Origin: a virus
IMG/VR virus record: IMGVR_UViG_3300049783_000526
Location: 1-20,594 of that record
Length of the DNA stretch: 20,594 nt
Strand: one strand, 5' to 3'
Position numbers and translations under genes: made by a program. Within the stretch, counting starts at the first letter, position 1. Each line of letters begins with the position of its first letter. Of this stretch, positions 2,624 to 13,890 are shown piece after piece. The notes under the pieces are model-generated. The model was not told the DNA's origin. It did no database searches and saw only the letters and a list, made by a program, of their open reading frames with translations.

Positions 2624-3039
2624 TTGCTTGCCTCCTTCCATATTGCGTCCAGTACGTTGAAGTGGTGCAGGGCTGCAGTGAGACGGTCCCCTGTGGAGCT
2701 TTGGCGTACTGCTGCTTTGCACAACATATAACTGGCAGCCCCTGTTACTGTGTCACTCAACTTATGCCACTTGTCTTCATCAAAAAACGTTGAGTAAGTA
2801 TGGAACGTTGAACTTATGTTCTTTCTGAGCTGCTTCAGGGCGTCTGACCGGGCCTGCTTGATAGCTGCACGTAATGGTGGCATTGGCGCCTCCTTCTTGG
2901 CTTGAGTCACTTTACGCACCATCAATGCCATCTCAGACTCATTGAGTCCGAACTGGTCAAGGTGCTTGATGAAGTGTTCTTCGGTCATCTGCCCATCGTT
3001 GAACAAGAATATCCAGTTGTCTAGTGTGCGTGCAATCAC
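2620..3039 (-). CDS. hypothetical helical protein, 139 residues
   Basis: GTG start (reading on as IARTLDNWIFLFNDGQMTEE) with GGAGA seven bases upstream, thirteen bases after the previous stop; reading from the ATG at 3114 would overlap the upstream gene and lacks a site. The stop overlaps the next ATG by four bases. The product looks almost wholly alpha-helical, with a basic central segment (residues 58-74, RAAIKQARSDALKQLRKN) and a C-terminal helix bundle. There is no signal peptide, membrane segment or catalytic pattern. I do not recognise a family. The basic patch could contact DNA or RNA, but that is speculation. Confidence 0.72.
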   Translation of the reverse strand: MIARTLDNWIFLFNDGQMTEEHFIKHLDQFGLNESEMALMVRKVTQAKKEAPMPPLRAAIKQARSDALKQLRKNISSTFHTYSTFFDEDKWHKLSDTVTGAASYMLCKAAVRQSSTGDRLTAALHHFNVLDAIWKEASK

Positions 3040-3052
3040 GGTAATTCTCCTG

Positions 3053-3289
3053 TTATAAATCGTATTCAGATTCAAAGGCGCACAATGCAACCTCGTCATA
3101 TAGTTCTTGGCCAAAAAATTCTACCAATTCAGCTTTTGTGATGTCACCACTCTCATAACCTTCAGTACACGCGTTGTAACGAAGCTGATGCATCTCATCA
3201 ACTATCTCTGGCTTGTGCGGGGTGTACTCACTTCCGTCACTGTCGATGAACTCTTGTACTTCTCTGCTTAACAGTTGCTGGCAATTCAT
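3053..3289 (-). CDS. hypothetical acidic protein, 78 residues
   Basis: ATG start (MNCQQLLSREVQEFIDSDGS) with GGAG eight bases upstream, two bases after the previous stop. The protein is acidic throughout (EFIDSDGSEYTPHKPEIVDE and a DEVALCAFESEYDL tail) and mainly helical. Small acidic early phage proteins sometimes mimic DNA or bind host enzymes, but nothing specific is visible here. Three cysteines are scattered (positions 3, 41 and 70) without a metal-binding spacing. Function unknown. Confidence 0.7.
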   Translation of the reverse strand: MNCQQLLSREVQEFIDSDGSEYTPHKPEIVDEMHQLRYNACTEGYESGDITKAELVEFFGQELYDEVALCAFESEYDL

Positions 3290-3291
3290 GA

Positions 3292-3516
3292 TTATAGCTC
3301 CGTTACATCTATGGCCAGTACCCTGAAGAATTGACCCTTAGCGTAAAACATTGCGTTCACTTCAAGGTGCTCAGTGAGGGAGTTGAAGGCGAAGACCTTG
3401 TCTGAGCACATGTGTGCATAGAATGGCCCATCACCATGTTGTGTCAACGTCTCTGTGAAGAAGCCGTCACGGTGGCAGTTGGTCTGGATAAGTACTCTTG
3501 TAATTTTCATAGTCAT
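3292..3516 (-). CDS. hypothetical protein, 74 residues, first gene of leftward operon
   Basis: Starts MTMKITRVLIQTNCHRDGFF. GGAT lies eight bases before the first ATG; a second in-frame ATG follows two codons later, so the true start could be 3510. It is the promoter-proximal gene of the leftward operon, about 40 bases downstream of the predicted transcription start. The sequence looks like a small beta-rich fold with aromatic residues, including a GPFYAHMCSDKVFAFNSL segment and a C-terminal YAKGQFFRVLAIDVTEL strand pair. Family not recognised. First genes of phage early operons often target host regulation, but no sequence feature confirms this here. Confidence 0.7.
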   Translation of the reverse strand: MTMKITRVLIQTNCHRDGFFTETLTQHGDGPFYAHMCSDKVFAFNSLTEHLEVNAMFYAKGQFFRVLAIDVTEL

Positions 3517-3562
3517 CGTTATGTATCCTGTTTTGAAGTTAATGTGTATGTGTATGAGCCAA

Positions 3563-3591
3563 ACTATAGTTCATTGTCACACAGTGTGCAA
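3563..3591 (-). promoter_or_regulatory. candidate sigma-70-type promoter for the leftward operon
   Basis: On the minus strand, TTGCAC (3591-3586) and TATAGT (3568-3563) are separated by exactly 17 bases. The -10 box matches consensus at five of six positions; the -35 matches at only three, so it would be weak or activator-dependent. Transcription would start near 3556, giving a leader of about 40 bases before the ATG at 3516. Confidence 0.42.
3578..3588. promoter_or_regulatory. palindrome in the leftward promoter spacer, possible operator
   Basis: CACACAGTGTG is a perfect palindrome about a central A, with partial extension of symmetry by flanking TTG and CAA. It occupies the spacer and -35 edge of the candidate leftward promoter, where a dimeric repressor would block RNA polymerase. 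No repressor gene is visible in the window. Confidence 0.35.
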
Positions 3592-3628
3592 CCCCTATTT
3601 GCAATTAATTTCAAAGTATTAGTTACGA

Positions 3629-3673
3629 GGTGATTGATGCTGTGGTGATTGATGCTGTGGTGATTAGTCATAT
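3629..3673. repeat. 15-base tandem repeat in the control region
   Basis: GGTGATTGATGCTGT at 3629-3643 is repeated exactly at 3644-3658. A degenerate third unit, GGTGATTAGTCATAT, runs from 3659 to 3673 and leads straight into a TCATATGG element. Such iterated units can be protein-binding sites of origins or operators. Confidence 0.8.
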
Positions 3674-3929
3674 GGTGAGTAAGACTGATAGTATGGTACT
3701 GAGTGAAAAACAAGGGAATGCGGCTTGGGGGCTGTGCATCATATGGTAACTTATTGGGGTAGGCCACGTCAGTGCTGCTGTGTACTTGGTTGGTGTACCC
3801 ACTTCATATGGTAACGATTAGCCGATAGCTGTCAGCACGAAATCTCTGTATCCCAGTAAAGTGGTTTAAATATCATATGTTTTACTGAGTTTCTATTTTA
3901 TGTAATTAATATTAAGTATCTGTAACTCA

Positions 3930-4014
3930 TCTGGATTCAAAAGTTAAGGTTCAAGTTATGAAAGTGTATATATAGTAAAAAATGTATATGTAGCTAGTAG
4001 TCATTGAATCCAGA
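3930..4014. repeat. 11-base perfect inverted repeat around an AT-rich core
   Basis: TCTGGATTCAA at 3930-3940 and its exact reverse complement TTGAATCCAGA at 4004-4014 flank 63 bases that include TATATATAG and runs of A. The symmetric arms could bind a dimeric regulator that loops out the enclosed promoter-like sequence, or they could mark an origin. The arms are too far apart for a typical terminator. Confidence 0.7.
3944..3976 (+). promoter_or_regulatory. weak candidate rightward promoter
   Basis: TTAAGG (3944-3949) and TATATA (3967-3972) have a 17-base spacer, and TATAGT overlaps at 3971-3976. The -35 match is poor (three of six). It is the most promoter-like AT-rich stretch upstream of the late operon and sits inside the inverted repeat. 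A phage-specific polymerase or activator could use a different element. Confidence 0.25.
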
Positions 4015-4057
4015 CGCAGACTGTAGTATGGTACTGAGTTCTAATCATATGGTAACG

Positions 4058-4075
4058 ATGGGTGAATTGAGATGA
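4058..4075 (+). CDS. possible five-codon leader minicistron upstream of the first late gene
   Basis: ATG GGT GAA TTG AGA TGA encodes MGELR. Its TGA overlaps the ATG of the next gene (ATGA at 4072-4075), so a ribosome ending here could restart at once. It is preceded by TAACG, the same context as the second minicistron at 4767. Its own ribosome site is weak. It may be only the leader of the downstream gene, whose own site could be GGGTGA within it. Confidence 0.25.
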   Translation: MGELR

Positions 4076-4749
4076 AAAAGATTGAGCAGCTTGAGCAGAT
4101 GGTGATAGACCTCGATGAACAGGTCAAACAGTTAAGAAGTGATAACGCAGTCATGGATAGTAAGCTCAAGGAGATGGGCAAGCAACTGGGTGTCAGGCTG
4201 AAGGAGGAGCTGAACTCAAAGCAGCAGATGAAGTTGCAAGAGGACCTCCGGTTCGCTCAAGCGTTAATGGATGTCTTGAAGAAACAACACAAGGACTATC
4301 CCCTCATCCAAGACCGCGACGTCTTTACTACACGTCACCTGCACATGATAGTGTGTCGGTTTATTGAGGAGGATATCCATGGACTAAAGATGAGTGCTAT
4401 AAAAACTGGATGGAATGGCCCCGAGTTCCACAAGCTCAATGCGGAGCTGAGGTCTATGACGAGCAGACTGGTGAACTCTGGGCTATTCATGAGGAGAAAA
4501 ACGCAGCAGTATGTTCCGGTGAACCCCTATGACATAGAAGGCAAGCCCTCGACCACCAAAGCTACTGTGGTTATATCTGACAACTTTAAGCGGTACGGCA
4601 AGATGACTGACAGTGCGCTGGGTGCTGTCATGGCGAGGCAGAAAGATAAAGCAAACCTACTGTACCAAAAAGCCCTCAAGAACTACTACCAAAAGCTCAA
4701 GGAGGCAGAGGACAATGCAGAAGTGGACACAGAGGTCTCGTTCTTATAG
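4072..4749 (+). CDS. coiled-coil protein of unknown function, first late gene, 225 residues
   Basis: Starts MKKIEQLEQMVIDLDEQVKQ. Residues 1-70 form a long heptad-rich coiled coil. Residues about 85-155 could be a winged-helix domain: HLHMIVCRFIEEDIHGLKMS, then a helix ELRSMTSRLVNSGLFM and a strand pair RRKTQQYVPVNPY that resembles recognition helix plus wing. The tail (190-225) is helical and ends in an acidic stretch (EAEDNAEVDTEV). It is the first gene of the rightward operon, directly after the repeat-rich control region and before the terminase small subunit. That position and the domain guess suggest a DNA-binding regulator or packaging accessory, but I cannot place it in a family. The start is coupled to a tiny leader frame. 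Confidence 0.8.
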   Translation: MKKIEQLEQMVIDLDEQVKQLRSDNAVMDSKLKEMGKQLGVRLKEELNSKQQMKLQEDLRFAQALMDVLKKQHKDYPLIQDRDVFTTRHLHMIVCRFIEEDIHGLKMSAIKTGWNGPEFHKLNAELRSMTSRLVNSGLFMRRKTQQYVPVNPYDIEGKPSTTKATVVISDNFKRYGKMTDSALGAVMARQKDKANLLYQKALKNYYQKLKEAEDNAEVDTEVSFL

Positions 4750-4766
4750 ACTGTCAAGGACTAACG

Positions 4767-4784
4767 ATGGATAACCCTATATGA
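4767..4784 (+). CDS. possible five-codon leader minicistron upstream of terS
   Basis: ATG GAT AAC CCT ATA TGA encodes MDNPI, and its TGA overlaps the terS ATG. AAGGA ends six bases before this ATG, which is ideal spacing for the leader and too far (20 bases) for terS itself. The layout copies that at 4058. GGAT inside it could serve terS directly, so expression of the peptide is unproven. Confidence 0.3.
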   Translation: MDNPI

Positions 4785-5257
4785 AAAAGCTGCAGCACAG
4801 AATACTGGAAGACCTGCCCCTTGTGAAAGAGGAGGCACACTTCGTGCTGGAGTATTGCATCGACATGAATATTCACCGGGTGGCTGCTGCGTGTAACATC
4901 GACCCGGAGAGAGCATTCGAGCTGAGGCAACGAGAAGACATCTCAGCCGTTATACAAGAGATAATGCAAGATAGGTTCACACCGCACGAGATAACCGCTG
5001 AGGTGTTGATGCAGGACTTCTATCGCCTGCACCACGTTGCTATGCAGCAAGGCAAACTACCTACCGCACTACAAGCACTCGACCGGGTCGCAAGATTGGG
5101 CATGGTGGACGCATACGCTGCAGAGAAGGTCGAGCTGAAGAGTGACCGTGACGTCGTTGAACGATTGATACGTGAGCGCAAGCGTAGACTGGCAGAGCTT
5201 AATAATCCAGATAAAGTAATCGACTTTAACCTCGACAATGGACCCTCCTTCCTATGA
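4781..5257 (+). CDS. terS: terminase small subunit, 158 residues
   Basis: The small terminase subunit recognises viral DNA at the packaging site and recruits the large subunit. Here the call rests mainly on position directly upstream of, and four-base overlap with, the large subunit, plus a typical size. An N-terminal helix-turn-helix-like segment is seen at residues 20-55 (EYCIDMNIHRVAAACNIDPE followed by AFELRQRED), as in small subunits that start from a resident DNA-binding fold. A helical oligomerisation region follows (60-108), then a long helix that is very charged (EKVELKSDRDVVERLIRERK). The C-terminal end (residues 140-158) is short and probably flexible, as expected for the part that touches the large subunit. 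The stop overlaps the next ATG, suggesting coupled translation. Confidence 0.82.
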   Translation: MKKLQHRILEDLPLVKEEAHFVLEYCIDMNIHRVAAACNIDPERAFELRQREDISAVIQEIMQDRFTPHEITAEVLMQDFYRLHHVAMQQGKLPTALQALDRVARLGMVDAYAAEKVELKSDRDVVERLIRERKRRLAELNNPDKVIDFNLDNGPSFL

Positions 5258-6849
5258 CTGTATCATTCATGAACCCACCTGCACCTCTTGCTGTACCTGA
5301 CATCAAAGCATCACTGGTGCCTACTGAGTTTCAAGACTTCGATGATATTGATGAGCTACTGGCTGGCGAGGTAGCACAATTCTTTGATGACCCACTTGGA
5401 TGGGTGATGTGGGCATTTGACTGGGGACATGGGGACCTTGAGGGCTTCGATGGACCAGACAAGTGGCAGGTGGATGAGTTAGAGGAGCTTGGCAGGCAGA
5501 TACGAGCCAACAGGTTCAATGGGGTTGACCCAGTTGACCCCATCAGATTCTCAACTGCATCAGGTCACGGGATAGGCAAGAGTGCCAAGTCCAGCTGGGT
5601 TATCCTATTCATCATGTCAACACGTCCATACGCGAAGGGTATCGTGACTGCTAACACAGGTGAGCAGCTTCGCACCAAGACGTGGTCAGAGCTGGGCAAG
5701 TGGCGTGAACGTTGTATCGTTGGCCACTGGTTCGAGTATAACAATGGTAAGGGGTCAATGAGCCTGTACCACAAGTCATTCCCGTCATCATGGCGAGTGG
5801 ATGCGCAGACATGTCGTGAAGAGAACTCTGAAGCATTCGCAGGACTACATGCTGCTAACAGTACACCATTCTACCTGTTTGATGAAGCATCAGCGGTGCC
5901 ATCCAAGATATGGGAAGTAGCTGAAGGTGGACTGACCGACGGGGAGCCTATGTTCTTCTGCTACGGTAACCCTACTCGTAATGATGGAAAGTTCCATGCA
6001 ACTTTTGACCCCGGCAGTCGATGGACCACGTTCCAGATAGACAGTCGCACCGCTAAGATGACGAACAAGCGACTCATTGCACAATGGGAAGAAGACCATG
6101 GGGAGGACTCAGACTTCTTCCGGGTACGTGTGAAGGGTCAGTTCCCTAAAGCGGGTGACATGCAGTTCATGCCGTCCGATATCGTTGAGATGGCGCAGAC
6201 GTACCCGATGCCTGCATACCTTGGTGATGAGCCACTTATCATGTCACTGGATGTGGCACGAGGTGGGGGTGATGATTGTCGTATAGCGTTCAAACGTGGT
6301 AAGGACCTCAAGTCTGAGACCAGCTACCGGATACCCTATGAGCAGTCGCGTGACTCGATGCGTATGTTGAGCAAGGTGGTCATGGTCATCGAACGCCACC
6401 AGCCCAATGCTATCTTTGTGGATGCAACCGGGGTCGGAGGTCCAATCCATGACAGACTACGTGAGCTAGGCTACAACTCCTATGAGGTCCACTTCGGCAA
6501 CAAAGCAGATGACGAGAAGCGATACTACAACAAGACCGCTGAGATGGGTGATAGGCTGCGTCGTGCCATGATGGACGGTGCCCGGATACCTAATGACGAG
6601 CAGCTTAAACGTGAGCTGACATGCCGTGAGTTCTGGCACGATGACAAGGACAAGCTGGTGCTGGAGCGTAAGAAAGATATCAAGCAACGACTAGGCTACT
6701 CACCGGATTGGGCAGATGCAATGTACCTGCTTTATGCCATGGAGAATGTACCAAGGTTGCACTATAAGCGTGGAGATGCTGACGTGGCACCATGGGCCAG
6801 AGAGCGTATGTCTCGTGATAAAGATTACGACCCACTAGCAGATATGTAA
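5254..6849 (+). CDS. terL: terminase large subunit (packaging ATPase and nuclease), 531 residues
   Basis: This motor cuts concatemeric DNA and pumps it into the prohead through the portal. The ATPase half shows a Walker A-like loop GHGIGKS (104-110), Walker B FYLFDE (206-211) and a coupling motif YGNPTR (237-242). The RNase H-like nuclease half has the three expected acidic strands: SLDVARGGG (Asp333), IFVDATGVGG (Asp390) and SPDWADA (Asp485/Asp488). Length is normal for the family. Start: ATG overlapping the terS stop (ATGA); a later Met at residue 6 is possible. All key residues appear present. The family cannot by itself tell cohesive-end packaging from headful or direct-terminal-repeat packaging. 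The 56-base gap after it holds the ribosome site of the next gene. Confidence 0.95.
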   Translation: MTVSFMNPPAPLAVPDIKASLVPTEFQDFDDIDELLAGEVAQFFDDPLGWVMWAFDWGHGDLEGFDGPDKWQVDELEELGRQIRANRFNGVDPVDPIRFSTASGHGIGKSAKSSWVILFIMSTRPYAKGIVTANTGEQLRTKTWSELGKWRERCIVGHWFEYNNGKGSMSLYHKSFPSSWRVDAQTCREENSEAFAGLHAANSTPFYLFDEASAVPSKIWEVAEGGLTDGEPMFFCYGNPTRNDGKFHATFDPGSRWTTFQIDSRTAKMTNKRLIAQWEEDHGEDSDFFRVRVKGQFPKAGDMQFMPSDIVEMAQTYPMPAYLGDEPLIMSLDVARGGGDDCRIAFKRGKDLKSETSYRIPYEQSRDSMRMLSKVVMVIERHQPNAIFVDATGVGGPIHDRLRELGYNSYEVHFGNKADDEKRYYNKTAEMGDRLRRAMMDGARIPNDEQLKRELTCREFWHDDKDKLVLERKKDIKQRLGYSPDWADAMYLLYAMENVPRLHYKRGDADVAPWARERMSRDKDYDPLADM

Positions 6850-8422: not shown

Positions 8423-10105
8423 ATGGGTGAAGTCACCAAGTTCAACAAAAGATTAGAAGCACTGAAGAGTGAGAGAAGTTCGTTCATCCCGACGTGGCGT
8501 GAACTCAGTGACTATCACCTTGCTCACCGTGGACGATTCCTCACAAGTGACAGAAACAAAGGTCACAAGCGCAACACGAGACAGTACAACAACACGTCCA
8601 AGATGGCTGCACGCACGTTAGCGTCAGGCATGATGGCGGGTATCACGTCCCCCGCTAGACCGTGGTTCAAGCTGGGCGCACCTGACCCGAAGCTGAATGA
8701 CATGGCTGCAGTCAAGGAGTGGTTGTTCCAAGTCCAGACAATAATGTACCGTGTGTTCAGTCAATCAAATGCGTACATATCCTTACACACACTTTACACT
8801 GAGCTGGGCGTATTCGGTACAGGTGCCATGGGAGTATATGAAGACTTTGACAATGTCATCCGGTGCAAGACGTATTCTGTGGGCAGCTACTGCTTAGGCA
8901 TGAATGGCCGTGATGAAGTTGATACCTTCTACCGTGACTATGATAAGACAATCGGTGAATGCGTTAAGATGTTCGGGTATGACAAGTGCTCTAGTTACAT
9001 CCAAGAGCAATGGACACGAGGCAACACTGAAGCGTGGATAACGCTGGTACATGCCATAGAGCCGAATGATAACCGTGACCAGATGTCACCGATGGCTAAA
9101 GATAAGAAGTTTCGCTCAGTGTATTATGAGCGTGGCAGTGGTACCCAGAAGGGCAGCAACAGTGGCCAGATACTAAAACGTTCCGGGTTCGATGAGTTTG
9201 CTGTACTGACCCCTCGCTGGGATGTAACCGGAGAGGACATCTACGCCACCGATTGCCCGGGCATGACTTGCCTTGGCGATACTAAAGCATTACAACTGGG
9301 GGAGAAGCGAGCGTATCAAGCTGTCGATAAGATGGCTAACCCACCACTTCAAGGTGACGCAACGCTGAAGACTAAGGTCGCCAATGGTAACAGCCTCAAG
9401 CCTGACGAGATAATCTGGCATGATGGTGACATGAAAGGACTGACCAGCATCTACGGGACCTATCGTCCTGACCTCAACGCTATTGAGCTGAAGAACGGAC
9501 AGGCTGAAATGCGTATCAAGAAGTCATTCTACGAAGACCTATTCCTTATGCTGGCAAGCAGTGACCGTAGACAGATAACTGCACGAGAAGTGGCTGAGAA
9601 GCAGGAAGAGAAGCTGTTGATGCTTGGTCCTGTCCTTGAGCGACTACACAACGAGTTACTAGACCCTCTCATCAATCGTACGTTCAACATACTACAGAAG
9701 GCAGGCATATTGCCTCCACCTCCACCAGAGTTGAATGGGGTTGAGCTGGGCGTCGAGTACATCAGCATATTGGCACAAGCGCAGCGCATGGTTGCAGTGG
9801 GTGGTATCGAGAGATTGACTGACTACACTATGAACATGGCGCAGATGTGGCCTGAAGCACGTCATAAAGTTAACGCGAGTCAGATGGTCGATGACTATGC
9901 AGAAGCGATGGGCGTTAACCCTAACATGGTGCGGAGTGATGATGATGTCGAGAAAGCAATGCAACAAGAGCAACAAGCGGCACAAGCAGCTCAGGCACAG
10001 GAGAGTGCAGCTCAGATGGCTCAGACTGCTAAGACAGCATCAGAAGCCAACACCAGTGGCGAGAACGGATTGAATAGACTACTACAACAGGCGGGGCTAC
10101 AATAA
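8423..10105 (+). CDS. portal protein (head-tail connector), 560 residues
   Basis: The portal is the dodecameric ring at one capsid vertex through which DNA enters and leaves and to which the tail attaches. The sequence fits the podophage head-to-tail connecting protein family (T7 gp8 type, Pfam PF12236), which is about 540 residues long. The N-terminus reads KRLEALKSERSSFIPTWREL then SDYHLAHRGRF, followed by NNTSKMAARTLASGMMAGIT and SPARPWFKLG, the family's hallmark. The central part (residues 150-400) is mixed alpha/beta, with a stem helix region near KSFYEDLFLMLASSDRRQIT. The C-terminal 60 residues are rich in Gln, Ala and Ser and probably disordered or barrel-forming. AAGGCG precedes the start. 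The stop overlaps the next ATG (TAATG). Confidence 0.93.
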   Translation: MGEVTKFNKRLEALKSERSSFIPTWRELSDYHLAHRGRFLTSDRNKGHKRNTRQYNNTSKMAARTLASGMMAGITSPARPWFKLGAPDPKLNDMAAVKEWLFQVQTIMYRVFSQSNAYISLHTLYTELGVFGTGAMGVYEDFDNVIRCKTYSVGSYCLGMNGRDEVDTFYRDYDKTIGECVKMFGYDKCSSYIQEQWTRGNTEAWITLVHAIEPNDNRDQMSPMAKDKKFRSVYYERGSGTQKGSNSGQILKRSGFDEFAVLTPRWDVTGEDIYATDCPGMTCLGDTKALQLGEKRAYQAVDKMANPPLQGDATLKTKVANGNSLKPDEIIWHDGDMKGLTSIYGTYRPDLNAIELKNGQAEMRIKKSFYEDLFLMLASSDRRQITAREVAEKQEEKLLMLGPVLERLHNELLDPLINRTFNILQKAGILPPPPPELNGVELGVEYISILAQAQRMVAVGGIERLTDYTMNMAQMWPEARHKVNASQMVDDYAEAMGVNPNMVRSDDDVEKAMQQEQQAAQAAQAQESAAQMAQTAKTASEANTSGENGLNRLLQQAGLQ

Positions 10106-12891: not shown

Positions 12892-13890
12892 ATGGCTACC
12901 ATAGGAAATACATTCGTAGATTTAATTGACATCTACAAGCAACAGGATGGCATGGGACAATACGTCTCTGTCATAGAGTTACTAATGGAGATGAACCCTA
13001 TTCTTGACGACGCTATTGCTGTCGAGTGTAACAAGGGAACGTCTCACCTACACACAGTACGAACAGGTCTACCTGCCGTATCGTGGGGCCGATTGTACAA
13101 AGGCATCGACCAGAGCAAGTCAACTACTGCACAAGTAGAAGACACAACTGGTTTCGTTGAAGGTCTTAGCACCATCGATGAGCGTTTGCTTGCCTTGTCT
13201 ACTAACGAAGGCGCAGTACGTTTATCCGAAGCGATGTCGTACTTAGAAGCGATGAACCAAGAAGTCGCTACTAAGATGTTTTATGGTAACAGTGCTTCGG
13301 ACCCGGAAGAGTTCATGGGCCTTGCACCACGATTCAACGACCTTGGTGCGGCTAACGGTGGACAGATTATCGACGCTGGTGGTACTGGTGCTGATAACAC
13401 GTCTATCTGGTTCGTTACATGGGGCGAGCGTCAGTGCCACTTGTTGTATCCTAAAGGTACGCAAGCGGGTGTACAGCGTGAAGACATGGGACGTCAGCGT
13501 ATTACTGATGCCGATGGCAAAGCTTACTACGCGAAGGAAGAGAAGTTCACTTGGCATATTGGCCTAGCGCTTAAAGACTGGAGATACGTTTCTCGTATCG
13601 CTAACGTCGATGTATCGCTTATGGAAGCAGGCTCAGTGGCATTGTACGACTTTATGCGTAAAGCGTACTACCAGTTACAGAACCGTCGTGTTGCAGGTGG
13701 CAAGTTATGCATCTACACAAACCGTGACGTACTGGAAGCACTTGATGCATTAGCGACTAACGCTGGCGCAAGTGACAGCTTCATTCGTTTGAAGCCGATG
13801 GAAATTGAAGGTCAAGAAATTATGACTTATCGTGGTATCCCTATTCGTGAAGTGGATGCTATTCTTAACACAGAAGCTCGTGTGGTTTAA
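12892..13890 (+). CDS. major capsid protein, epsilon15 gp7-type, 332 residues
   Basis: Forms the icosahedral shell. The start MATIGNTFVDLIDIYKQQDG follows AGAGG at good spacing. The length and many segments match the gp7/BPP-1-type major capsid family (epsilon15 gp7 is about 335 residues): NPILDDAIAVECNKGTSHLH, then an LPAVSWGRLYKGIDQSKSTT loop, a DERLLALS segment, MNQEVATKMFYGNSASDPEE and FMGLAPRFNDL. Near the end, MTYRGIPIREVDAILNTEA is the family's characteristic last motif. It has the HK97 fold in relatives and shows no protease-cleaved N-terminal arm. No programmed-frameshift signal is evident at its 3' end. Codon use is more biased (CGT, GGT, GCG rich) than in neighbours, as expected for the most highly expressed gene. 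Confidence 0.93.
   Translation: MATIGNTFVDLIDIYKQQDGMGQYVSVIELLMEMNPILDDAIAVECNKGTSHLHTVRTGLPAVSWGRLYKGIDQSKSTTAQVEDTTGFVEGLSTIDERLLALSTNEGAVRLSEAMSYLEAMNQEVATKMFYGNSASDPEEFMGLAPRFNDLGAANGGQIIDAGGTGADNTSIWFVTWGERQCHLLYPKGTQAGVQREDMGRQRITDADGKAYYAKEEKFTWHIGLALKDWRYVSRIANVDVSLMEAGSVALYDFMRKAYYQLQNRRVAGGKLCIYTNRDVLEALDALATNAGASDSFIRLKPMEIEGQEIMTYRGIPIREVDAILNTEARVV

Follow-up and report, generated by a model that had tools for sequence, protein, structure and literature searches.

The gap between the divergent operons in front of the terminase genes is, on a tentative reading to which we give just under an even chance, an iteron-type replication origin of the phage. It occupies 3517–4071 of the window, by which we mean the whole 20,594-base virus record analysed. 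The window is a fragment and its own primase is not in the record, so that the origin reading rests here on relatives and on a free-standing winged helix encoded beside the gap. Among the relatives, the place and architecture of the gap are conserved, not its letters. As reader of its repeated words, sequence comparison best supports the winged helix at the C-terminus of the DUF5906 primase-helicase that relatives encode. A first-pass annotation had proposed an origin, a switch region or a packaging site; this was the right short list, and the evidence favours the first. To call the gap an undescribed device overstates the case, since initiator helicases that read iterons through a C-terminal domain are of a known kind.

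The gap is 555 bases long, with leftward genes on one side and the terminase operon, running rightwards, on the other (Table 1); the divergent flanks described earlier were borne out. The late operon is of the podovirus type, with terS at 4781, terL at 5254, a portal/head-tail adaptor at 8423 and the major head protein at 12892. For TerS, two relatives matched phrog_51 with E 1e-12 and 2e-9, the window copy with E 0.035 only. The leftward set consists of small genes, nearly all without family matches, and the 74-aa product of the first one gave no Pfam or PHROG match. Further left, the product of 849–1958 (−) has 369 aa and matches DUF6501; its coding sequence contains a 15-bp tandem at 1681–1731.

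Table 1 Features of the window in and around the gap.
Feature	Position	Strand	Remarks
First leftward-operon gene, 74 aa	3292–3516	−	L001: another gene at the same place
Divergent intergenic repeat region, candidate iteron origin	3517–4071		Repeats; same gap in relatives
Candidate leftward promoter, TTGCAC-17-TATAGT	3563–3591	−	Form TTGCACnnTGTnnGACA common to window, L001 and L004
15-bp tandem array, unit GTGATTGATGCTGTG at 3630/3645, 2.5 exact copies	3629–3665	+	
TCATATG element 1	3668–3674	+	Altered in L001
16-base direct repeat TAGTATGGTACTGAGT, copy 1	3689–3704	+	L001: one base different
TCATATG element 2	3739–3745	+	
TCATATG element 3, in form TCATATGGTAACGAT	3804–3810	+	
Most A+T-rich 60 bases in the gap (83%), possible unwinding element	3865–3924		
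TCATATG element 4	3873–3879	+	
11-bp inverted repeat, left arm TCTGGATTCAA	3930–3940	+	
11-bp inverted repeat, right arm TTGAATCCAGA	4004–4014	−	
16-base direct repeat TAGTATGGTACTGAGT, copy 2	4024–4039	+	
TCATATG element 5, in form TCATATGGTAACGAT	4045–4051	+	Directly upstream of 4072 start
“Pre-terS”, coiled coil and predicted winged helix, C-terminus EVSFL	4072–4749	+	Related to the C-terminal end of the primase-helicase
Terminase small subunit (terS)	4781–5257	+	By position and profile
Terminase large subunit (terL)	5254–6849	+	

All four kinds of repeat named in the first-pass annotation were present; they are genuine and exceed what chance would give. When the gap was shuffled 2000 times with dinucleotides preserved, five TCATATG copies, a repeated 16-mer and an exact 15-bp tandem were each reached 0 times. 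An 11-bp inverted repeat with a loop of 20–150 bases was reached in 33, and is therefore the weakest of the elements; its arms flank a 63-base core with 75% A+T. TCATATG occurs five times in the whole window, every time inside the gap. We additionally recognized TATGG cores in two pairs, 3671/3692 and 4027/4048, each with a spacing of 21 bp, the first joining element 1 with copy 1 of the 16-mer and the second element 5 with copy 2. Exact 8-mer direct repeat pairs numbered 56, with 5.8 expected; inverted 8-mer copies showed no excess (8 vs 5.5, p 0.2), and the window’s word copies all have one orientation. A search for tRNAs and known RNA families found none. DnaA-type boxes were absent from 14 of the 18 gaps searched, including the window’s, and gave single or double matches in those of L008, L022, L025 and L026.

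Rightwards of 3510 (L001 651), the relative L001 matched the window with 99.7% identity over 12,429 bases and 34 mismatches; leftwards it was unrelated, marking a sharp mosaic breakpoint. Twenty of the 34 mismatches fell in 3510–3704 and none in 3705–4071, and L001 diverges from inside the second unit of the 15-bp tandem array onward. The left gene of L001 resembles that of L004. The next relatives were L002, L003 and L004, in which, over the stretch compared, DNA common to the window was found within terS only. A BLASTN search with window positions 3000–5300 gave no match in 50,697 phage records. Exact TCATATGGTAACGAT was found in 74 IMG/VR stretches, twice in L001 and singly in the remaining 73, and the exact 16-mer TAGTATGGTACTGAGT once in each of 20 stretches, L001 included. 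Absence of the repeats from all close relatives had been named beforehand among the grounds for giving up a control function. Taken literally this is nearly what we found, only L001 among the relatives found having these words; in spirit it fails, most relatives having their own repeats in the same gap. The comparison with relatives that had been suggested points to a family-wide cis element and not a local curiosity.

In most loci with enough upstream sequence the order was leftward operon, gap, an optional pre-terS gene and terS. Loci arranged otherwise were L044, L045, L058, L059, L066 and L067, and in L002 a pre-terS was present without this gap in front. At L002 1–181, the end of a + strand gene resembling the window’s leftward 2285–2722 abuts pre-terS, by eye a rearrangement. 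The relatives’ leftward operons (e.g., L034, L026 and L018) read as an accessory-gene hotspot, with pentapeptide-like repeat proteins, AP2/HNH-like proteins and lysis-like genes.

From 52 loci with a terS hit we took 29 gaps, excluding short, near-duplicate and differently arranged loci and setting the gap ends by hand from crude ORF calls; the 29 are not independent, because the window and L001, and L012 and L014, are near-copies. With a threshold of p 0.005 or less in 200 shuffles, 26 of the 29 had excess 8-mer repeats, direct (23/29) or as inverted copies (22/29), the three without excess being L004, L009 and L083. At equal search effort, a 12-base word outscored every one of 30 shuffles in 30 of the 37 gaps searched, the window’s too, and by more than 3 units in 27. 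No word beyond shuffles was found in the other seven (L009, L021, L022, L034, L083, L187 and L190). For this search L001 was dropped; for eight added loci a constant 900 bases upstream were taken, perhaps with some coding DNA among them.

The repeated word varied between lineages: AGTCTAC.TT in L004, GGTTGGC in L007, L010, L046 and L182, TGTCCTAT in L012 and L014, CGTTACAATGG in L029, AACATT-type words in L011, L026 and L027, and GTGTCA/TGTCAT in L165, L172 and L175. Copies were spread across 0.3–0.9 kb. They lay in both orientations in 29 of the 30 strong-word gaps, the window being the exception. In a scan of 15 records, including relatives of 44.7–47.3 kb (L009 was omitted, having no clear word), exact 11-mer words were absent farther than 1.3 kb from the gap in all 15, and had 0–2 copies there when one mismatch was allowed; 7-base cores such as TATGGTA were also found elsewhere (five in the window). 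Because each word was picked from its gap, enrichment there is by construction, and what the scan tells us is that the word does not cluster a second time. The window, itself a fragment, has the copies of its short site clustered at one place, and the larger relatives agree with it.

Inverted-copy repeats, counted in 600-base segments of 16 records, peaked at the gap in nine, tied in the window and did not peak there in six. Same-strand word spacings favoured 10.75–11 bp (Rayleigh p 0.0005); we do not rely on helical phasing, because spacings of 9 and 9.5 bp come to p 0.015 as well and the pairs lack independence. Strong segments of purely direct repeats occur elsewhere in the records, at G015 3501, G005 44401, G011 1901, G014 2701, G012 4301 and others, several of them holding hundreds of 9-mer pairs.

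The mosaic breakpoint could also suggest a recombination-prone spacer, where repeats would accumulate and turn over neutrally at a site of accessory-gene exchange, with no dedicated reader. The near-identity of the window and L001 to the right of 3510, their unrelated left sides, the concentration of their differences in 3510–3704 and the hypervariable leftward genes would all fit. We nevertheless consider it improbable, given the two orientations of the words in all strong-word gaps except the window’s, and given that lineages with mostly non-aligning gaps share words and that the words covary with one protein domain, as detailed below.

Base composition was examined as third-position GC skew in 12 records of 44.7–47.3 kb treated as circles, with gene strand as a covariate. 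The skew summed over the 12 records peaked at the gap (sum 17.9, rotation p 0.0004). Genes pointing rightwards were richer in G when on the right arm (10 of 12 records), and those pointing leftwards when on the left arm (10 of 11; such genes are few on the right arm). Inside the left arm alone the skew agreed in only 8 of 12 records. Taken singly, five records placed the gap 25th or lower of ~90 positions, two of these with reversed sign. Function and position are inseparable in this analysis, because the late genes start exactly at the gap. The strand-controlled skew thus agrees weakly with an origin, confounded by the shared gene layout.

A relative of the L027 DUF5906 primase-helicase was found in 17 of 30 relative records, some of which are fragments. 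The DUF5906 identity comes from Pfam/profile matches for those tested (L027, L004 and L095); a RepB_primase match was also seen but was weak. Wherever primase and gap are in the same locus, the primase lies beyond the leftward operon. The window record holds only a free-standing relative of the primase tail domain, its pre-terS. A profile of the 4072 protein and its relatives matched 30–36 residues at the end of 850–870 aa proteins, with E 2e-7 to 2e-5 for the primases of L022, L027 and L007 and more weakly in others. In L028, the gene preceding terS matched primase positions 744–848. By these profile matches, the window’s first rightward gene is classed as a free-standing relative of the primase-helicase winged-helix domain. 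A 364-aa protein adjoining the gap in L047 (7599–8693, −) and L140 (4680–5774) carries four repeats of a short motif from the primase-helicase end.

AlphaFold modelled both pre-terS and the primase tail as winged helices (mean pLDDT 78 and 85, respectively). With Foldseek neither model had a match at E 0.001 or below, and a second structure comparison gave weak matches, mostly winged helices, with Z of at most 6.5 for the primase tail and 5.5 for pre-terS. The origin-binding domain of P4 was not among the matches listed, to which we attach no weight. Sequence searches of solved structures found nothing for the primase tail and only weak, coiled-coil-like or chance matches for pre-terS. In joining a coiled coil to a predicted winged helix, pre-terS brings gpNu1 to mind. 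Over 22 lineages the tail was the most variable part of the primase, with 38% mean identity compared to 60–65% elsewhere.

The similarity of the words between lineages followed that of the winged helix. In a partial Mantel test, words correlated with the winged helix given the helicase core (r 0.25, p 0.003, 22 lineages; r 0.24, p 0.003, 25 lineages), and the reverse test, helicase given winged helix, gave p 0.22 and 0.13. Vibrio phage 1.185.O was omitted from the 25, its gap being 94% identical to that of PS25B.1. TerS identity gave p 0.17 with 22 lineages, and a range of 0.11–0.40 given winged helix and helicase. Plain correlations with the words differed little (winged helix 0.59, helicase 0.57, TerS 0.54). 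Without the lineages sharing a TDKK recognition region, which look like one clade, 18 remained and the winged helix given helicase gave p 0.055 (0.067 given helicase and TerS); with a thinned set of 21, p was 0.035. Because of these last values, the covariation is support and not proof, with the winged helix appearing narrowly the best predictor of word similarity. All statistics used shuffles, rotations or Mantel permutations, with no phylogenetic model.

The TDKK lineages L155, L165, L172 and L175 have the recognition region, a short wing and the GTGTCA/TGTCAT word in common. GTGTCA was named from these four loci (3.3–14.4 per kb) and then sought in cultivated Vibrio phages. Four of these, PS25B.1, 1.185.O, 1.021.A and MZH0603, all have the TDKK/short-wing tail, and their gaps contained 14.3, 15.8, 10.3 and 2.9 GTGTCA per kb, respectively. 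MZH0603, the weakest of the eight, was already in the analysed set and so is no blind prediction, and the best words of its gap differ from GTGTCA. Altogether, all eight TDKK-type gaps had 2.9–15.8 copies per kb and all 18 others 0–2.4 (p 1.8e-5). Most TDKK-type gaps gave no BLASTN alignment beyond short pieces, the exceptions being PS25B.1 against 1.185.O (94%) and, at one end only, L155 against L165 (72%). Reader and word do not pair off neatly one to one: L010 abounds in GGTTGGC as well as AACATT, and L041, which is not TDKK, has 7.0 TGTCAT per kb.

The same words might instead be operators of an early/late switch, with a regulator (pre-terS or the primase winged helix) closing a leftward promoter and opening the terminase operon. 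We think this unlikely as the main function, though it is the most probable of the alternatives considered. Divergent operons lie on either side of the gap, and a strict TTG-type leftward sigma-70 match stands near its left end in 11 of 38 loci, a count made without a chance control; another promoter form is common to the window, L001 and L004. The last TCATATG element is just upstream of the 4072 start, and the product of that gene is modelled as a winged-helix protein. Against a switch, the leftward operons have no shared regulator (the largest cluster covers 6 of up to 30 loci), and the pre-terS profile matches nothing in many loci that have words. The words also span 0.3–0.9 kb without a second cluster elsewhere, and promoter-like matches in 3300–4300 were not above chance (2 found, 2.6 expected), none of them rightward. 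A switch could coexist with an origin, because the leftward promoter candidate lies in the gap.

The position upstream of terS also brings to mind a cosB- or pac-like array that would recruit the terminase, its reader being TerS or else pre-terS in the role of recognition subunit. The R sites of lambda cosB and pac sites are likewise repeats near terS; the array in these phages is larger and mostly in both orientations, and TerS is not the best predictor of its words. In favour, pre-terS shares the C-terminal [VPI]SF[LFMI] tail with TerS, in addition to having a coiled coil and a predicted winged helix. However, the helix-turn-helix regions of TerS are closely similar even where the words differ (L010 vs L027), and TerS identity did not predict the words once winged helix and helicase were given. 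This weakens TerS as reader, and we judge a packaging site improbable, about as much so as a neutral spacer.

The [VPI]-S-F-[LFMI] tail is often preceded by acidic residues. Of the 807 ORFs of at least ~60 aa in the window and the records of 16 relatives, 35 have SF[LFMI] as their last residues: 13 TerS, 4 pre-terS, 14 proteins of 320–497 aa and 4 small genes, two of which are HNH-like. Four of the 320–497 aa proteins were tested and all were DUF2800/phrog_69 exonucleases (e.g., L116 3598–5007 and L110 8448–9833). The ending looks like a shared docking tail, comparable to SSB or clamp-binding tips.

An iteron origin of the kind we favour has known counterparts. P4 has two repeat regions; in the phages analysed here a word was seen to cluster only once. 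The likeness of these phages to the pRN1 type rests on DUF5906 and the weak RepB_primase match. In the pRN1 type, an archaeo-eukaryotic primase, an SF3 helicase and a winged helix are joined in one protein, and the account in PMC4234260 includes a proposal that such primase-SF3-winged-helix proteins use stem-loops. Our phages differ in having repeats in place of a long perfect stem: within 250 bases downstream of the primase, a search limited to perfect repeats found no inverted repeat over 13 in 19 loci, representing 18 phages (L008 and L098 being one phage). The P4 alpha protein is, as described in PMC4234260 (citing Yeo et al. 2002), likewise a fused primase-helicase whose C-terminal winged helix binds repeats at the origin; it differs in its bacterial-type (Toprim) primase and in P4 being a satellite (PMC4234260). 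A P4-like tail fold is also described for ASFV C962R (PMC10516667). Close counterparts too are the D5-family helicases SaPI Rep and SCCmec Cch2, related to primase-helicases, with one repeat cluster per element and short repeats, or iterons, bound through the C-terminal domain; binding was shown there and is inferred here (PMC7581432). In the SaPI and SCC elements the origin is directly downstream of the helicase gene (PMC7581432), whereas in our phages the gap is kilobases off, where early and late genes diverge, upstream of terS. A leftward operon separates primase and gap in the relatives that have both.

As an origin, the gap would work as a binding array, with many copies of a lineage-specific short word over 0.3–0.9 kb including an A+T-rich part. 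The C-terminal winged-helix domain of the phage primase-helicase would bind the words, the helicase would assemble at the array and unwind it, and the primase would begin synthesis. Forks would then depart leftwards into the early genes and rightwards into the late ones. Because the words sit between the candidate leftward promoter and the late operon, their binding may influence transcription too. In the window’s lineage, the free-standing winged helix of 4072–4749 probably binds the same array, as accessory or competitor. Binding, unwinding and initiation at the gap, and every role of the window’s own primase, are what we infer from these comparisons.

A bolder extension, which we regard as speculative and improbable, is that iteron words and winged-helix tip change together as “lock and key” of the origin in marine podovirus-type phages, and that close relatives do not recognise each other’s origins. 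In some lineages, the window’s included, a free-standing key with a TerS-type SF[L/F] tail beside the array would hand the replicated array to the terminase, coupling the start of replication to packaging.

Among the titles and abstracts that our literature searches listed, none dealt with this gap in this phage family. If the origin reading is true, a mostly uncultured phage family, with a few cultivated Vibrio members, would have a predictable replication origin at a fixed place. With the natural series of matched words and domains, the code by which D5-type initiator helicases read DNA could be tested directly, and a mismatch of origins would be a candidate barrier between co-infecting phages.
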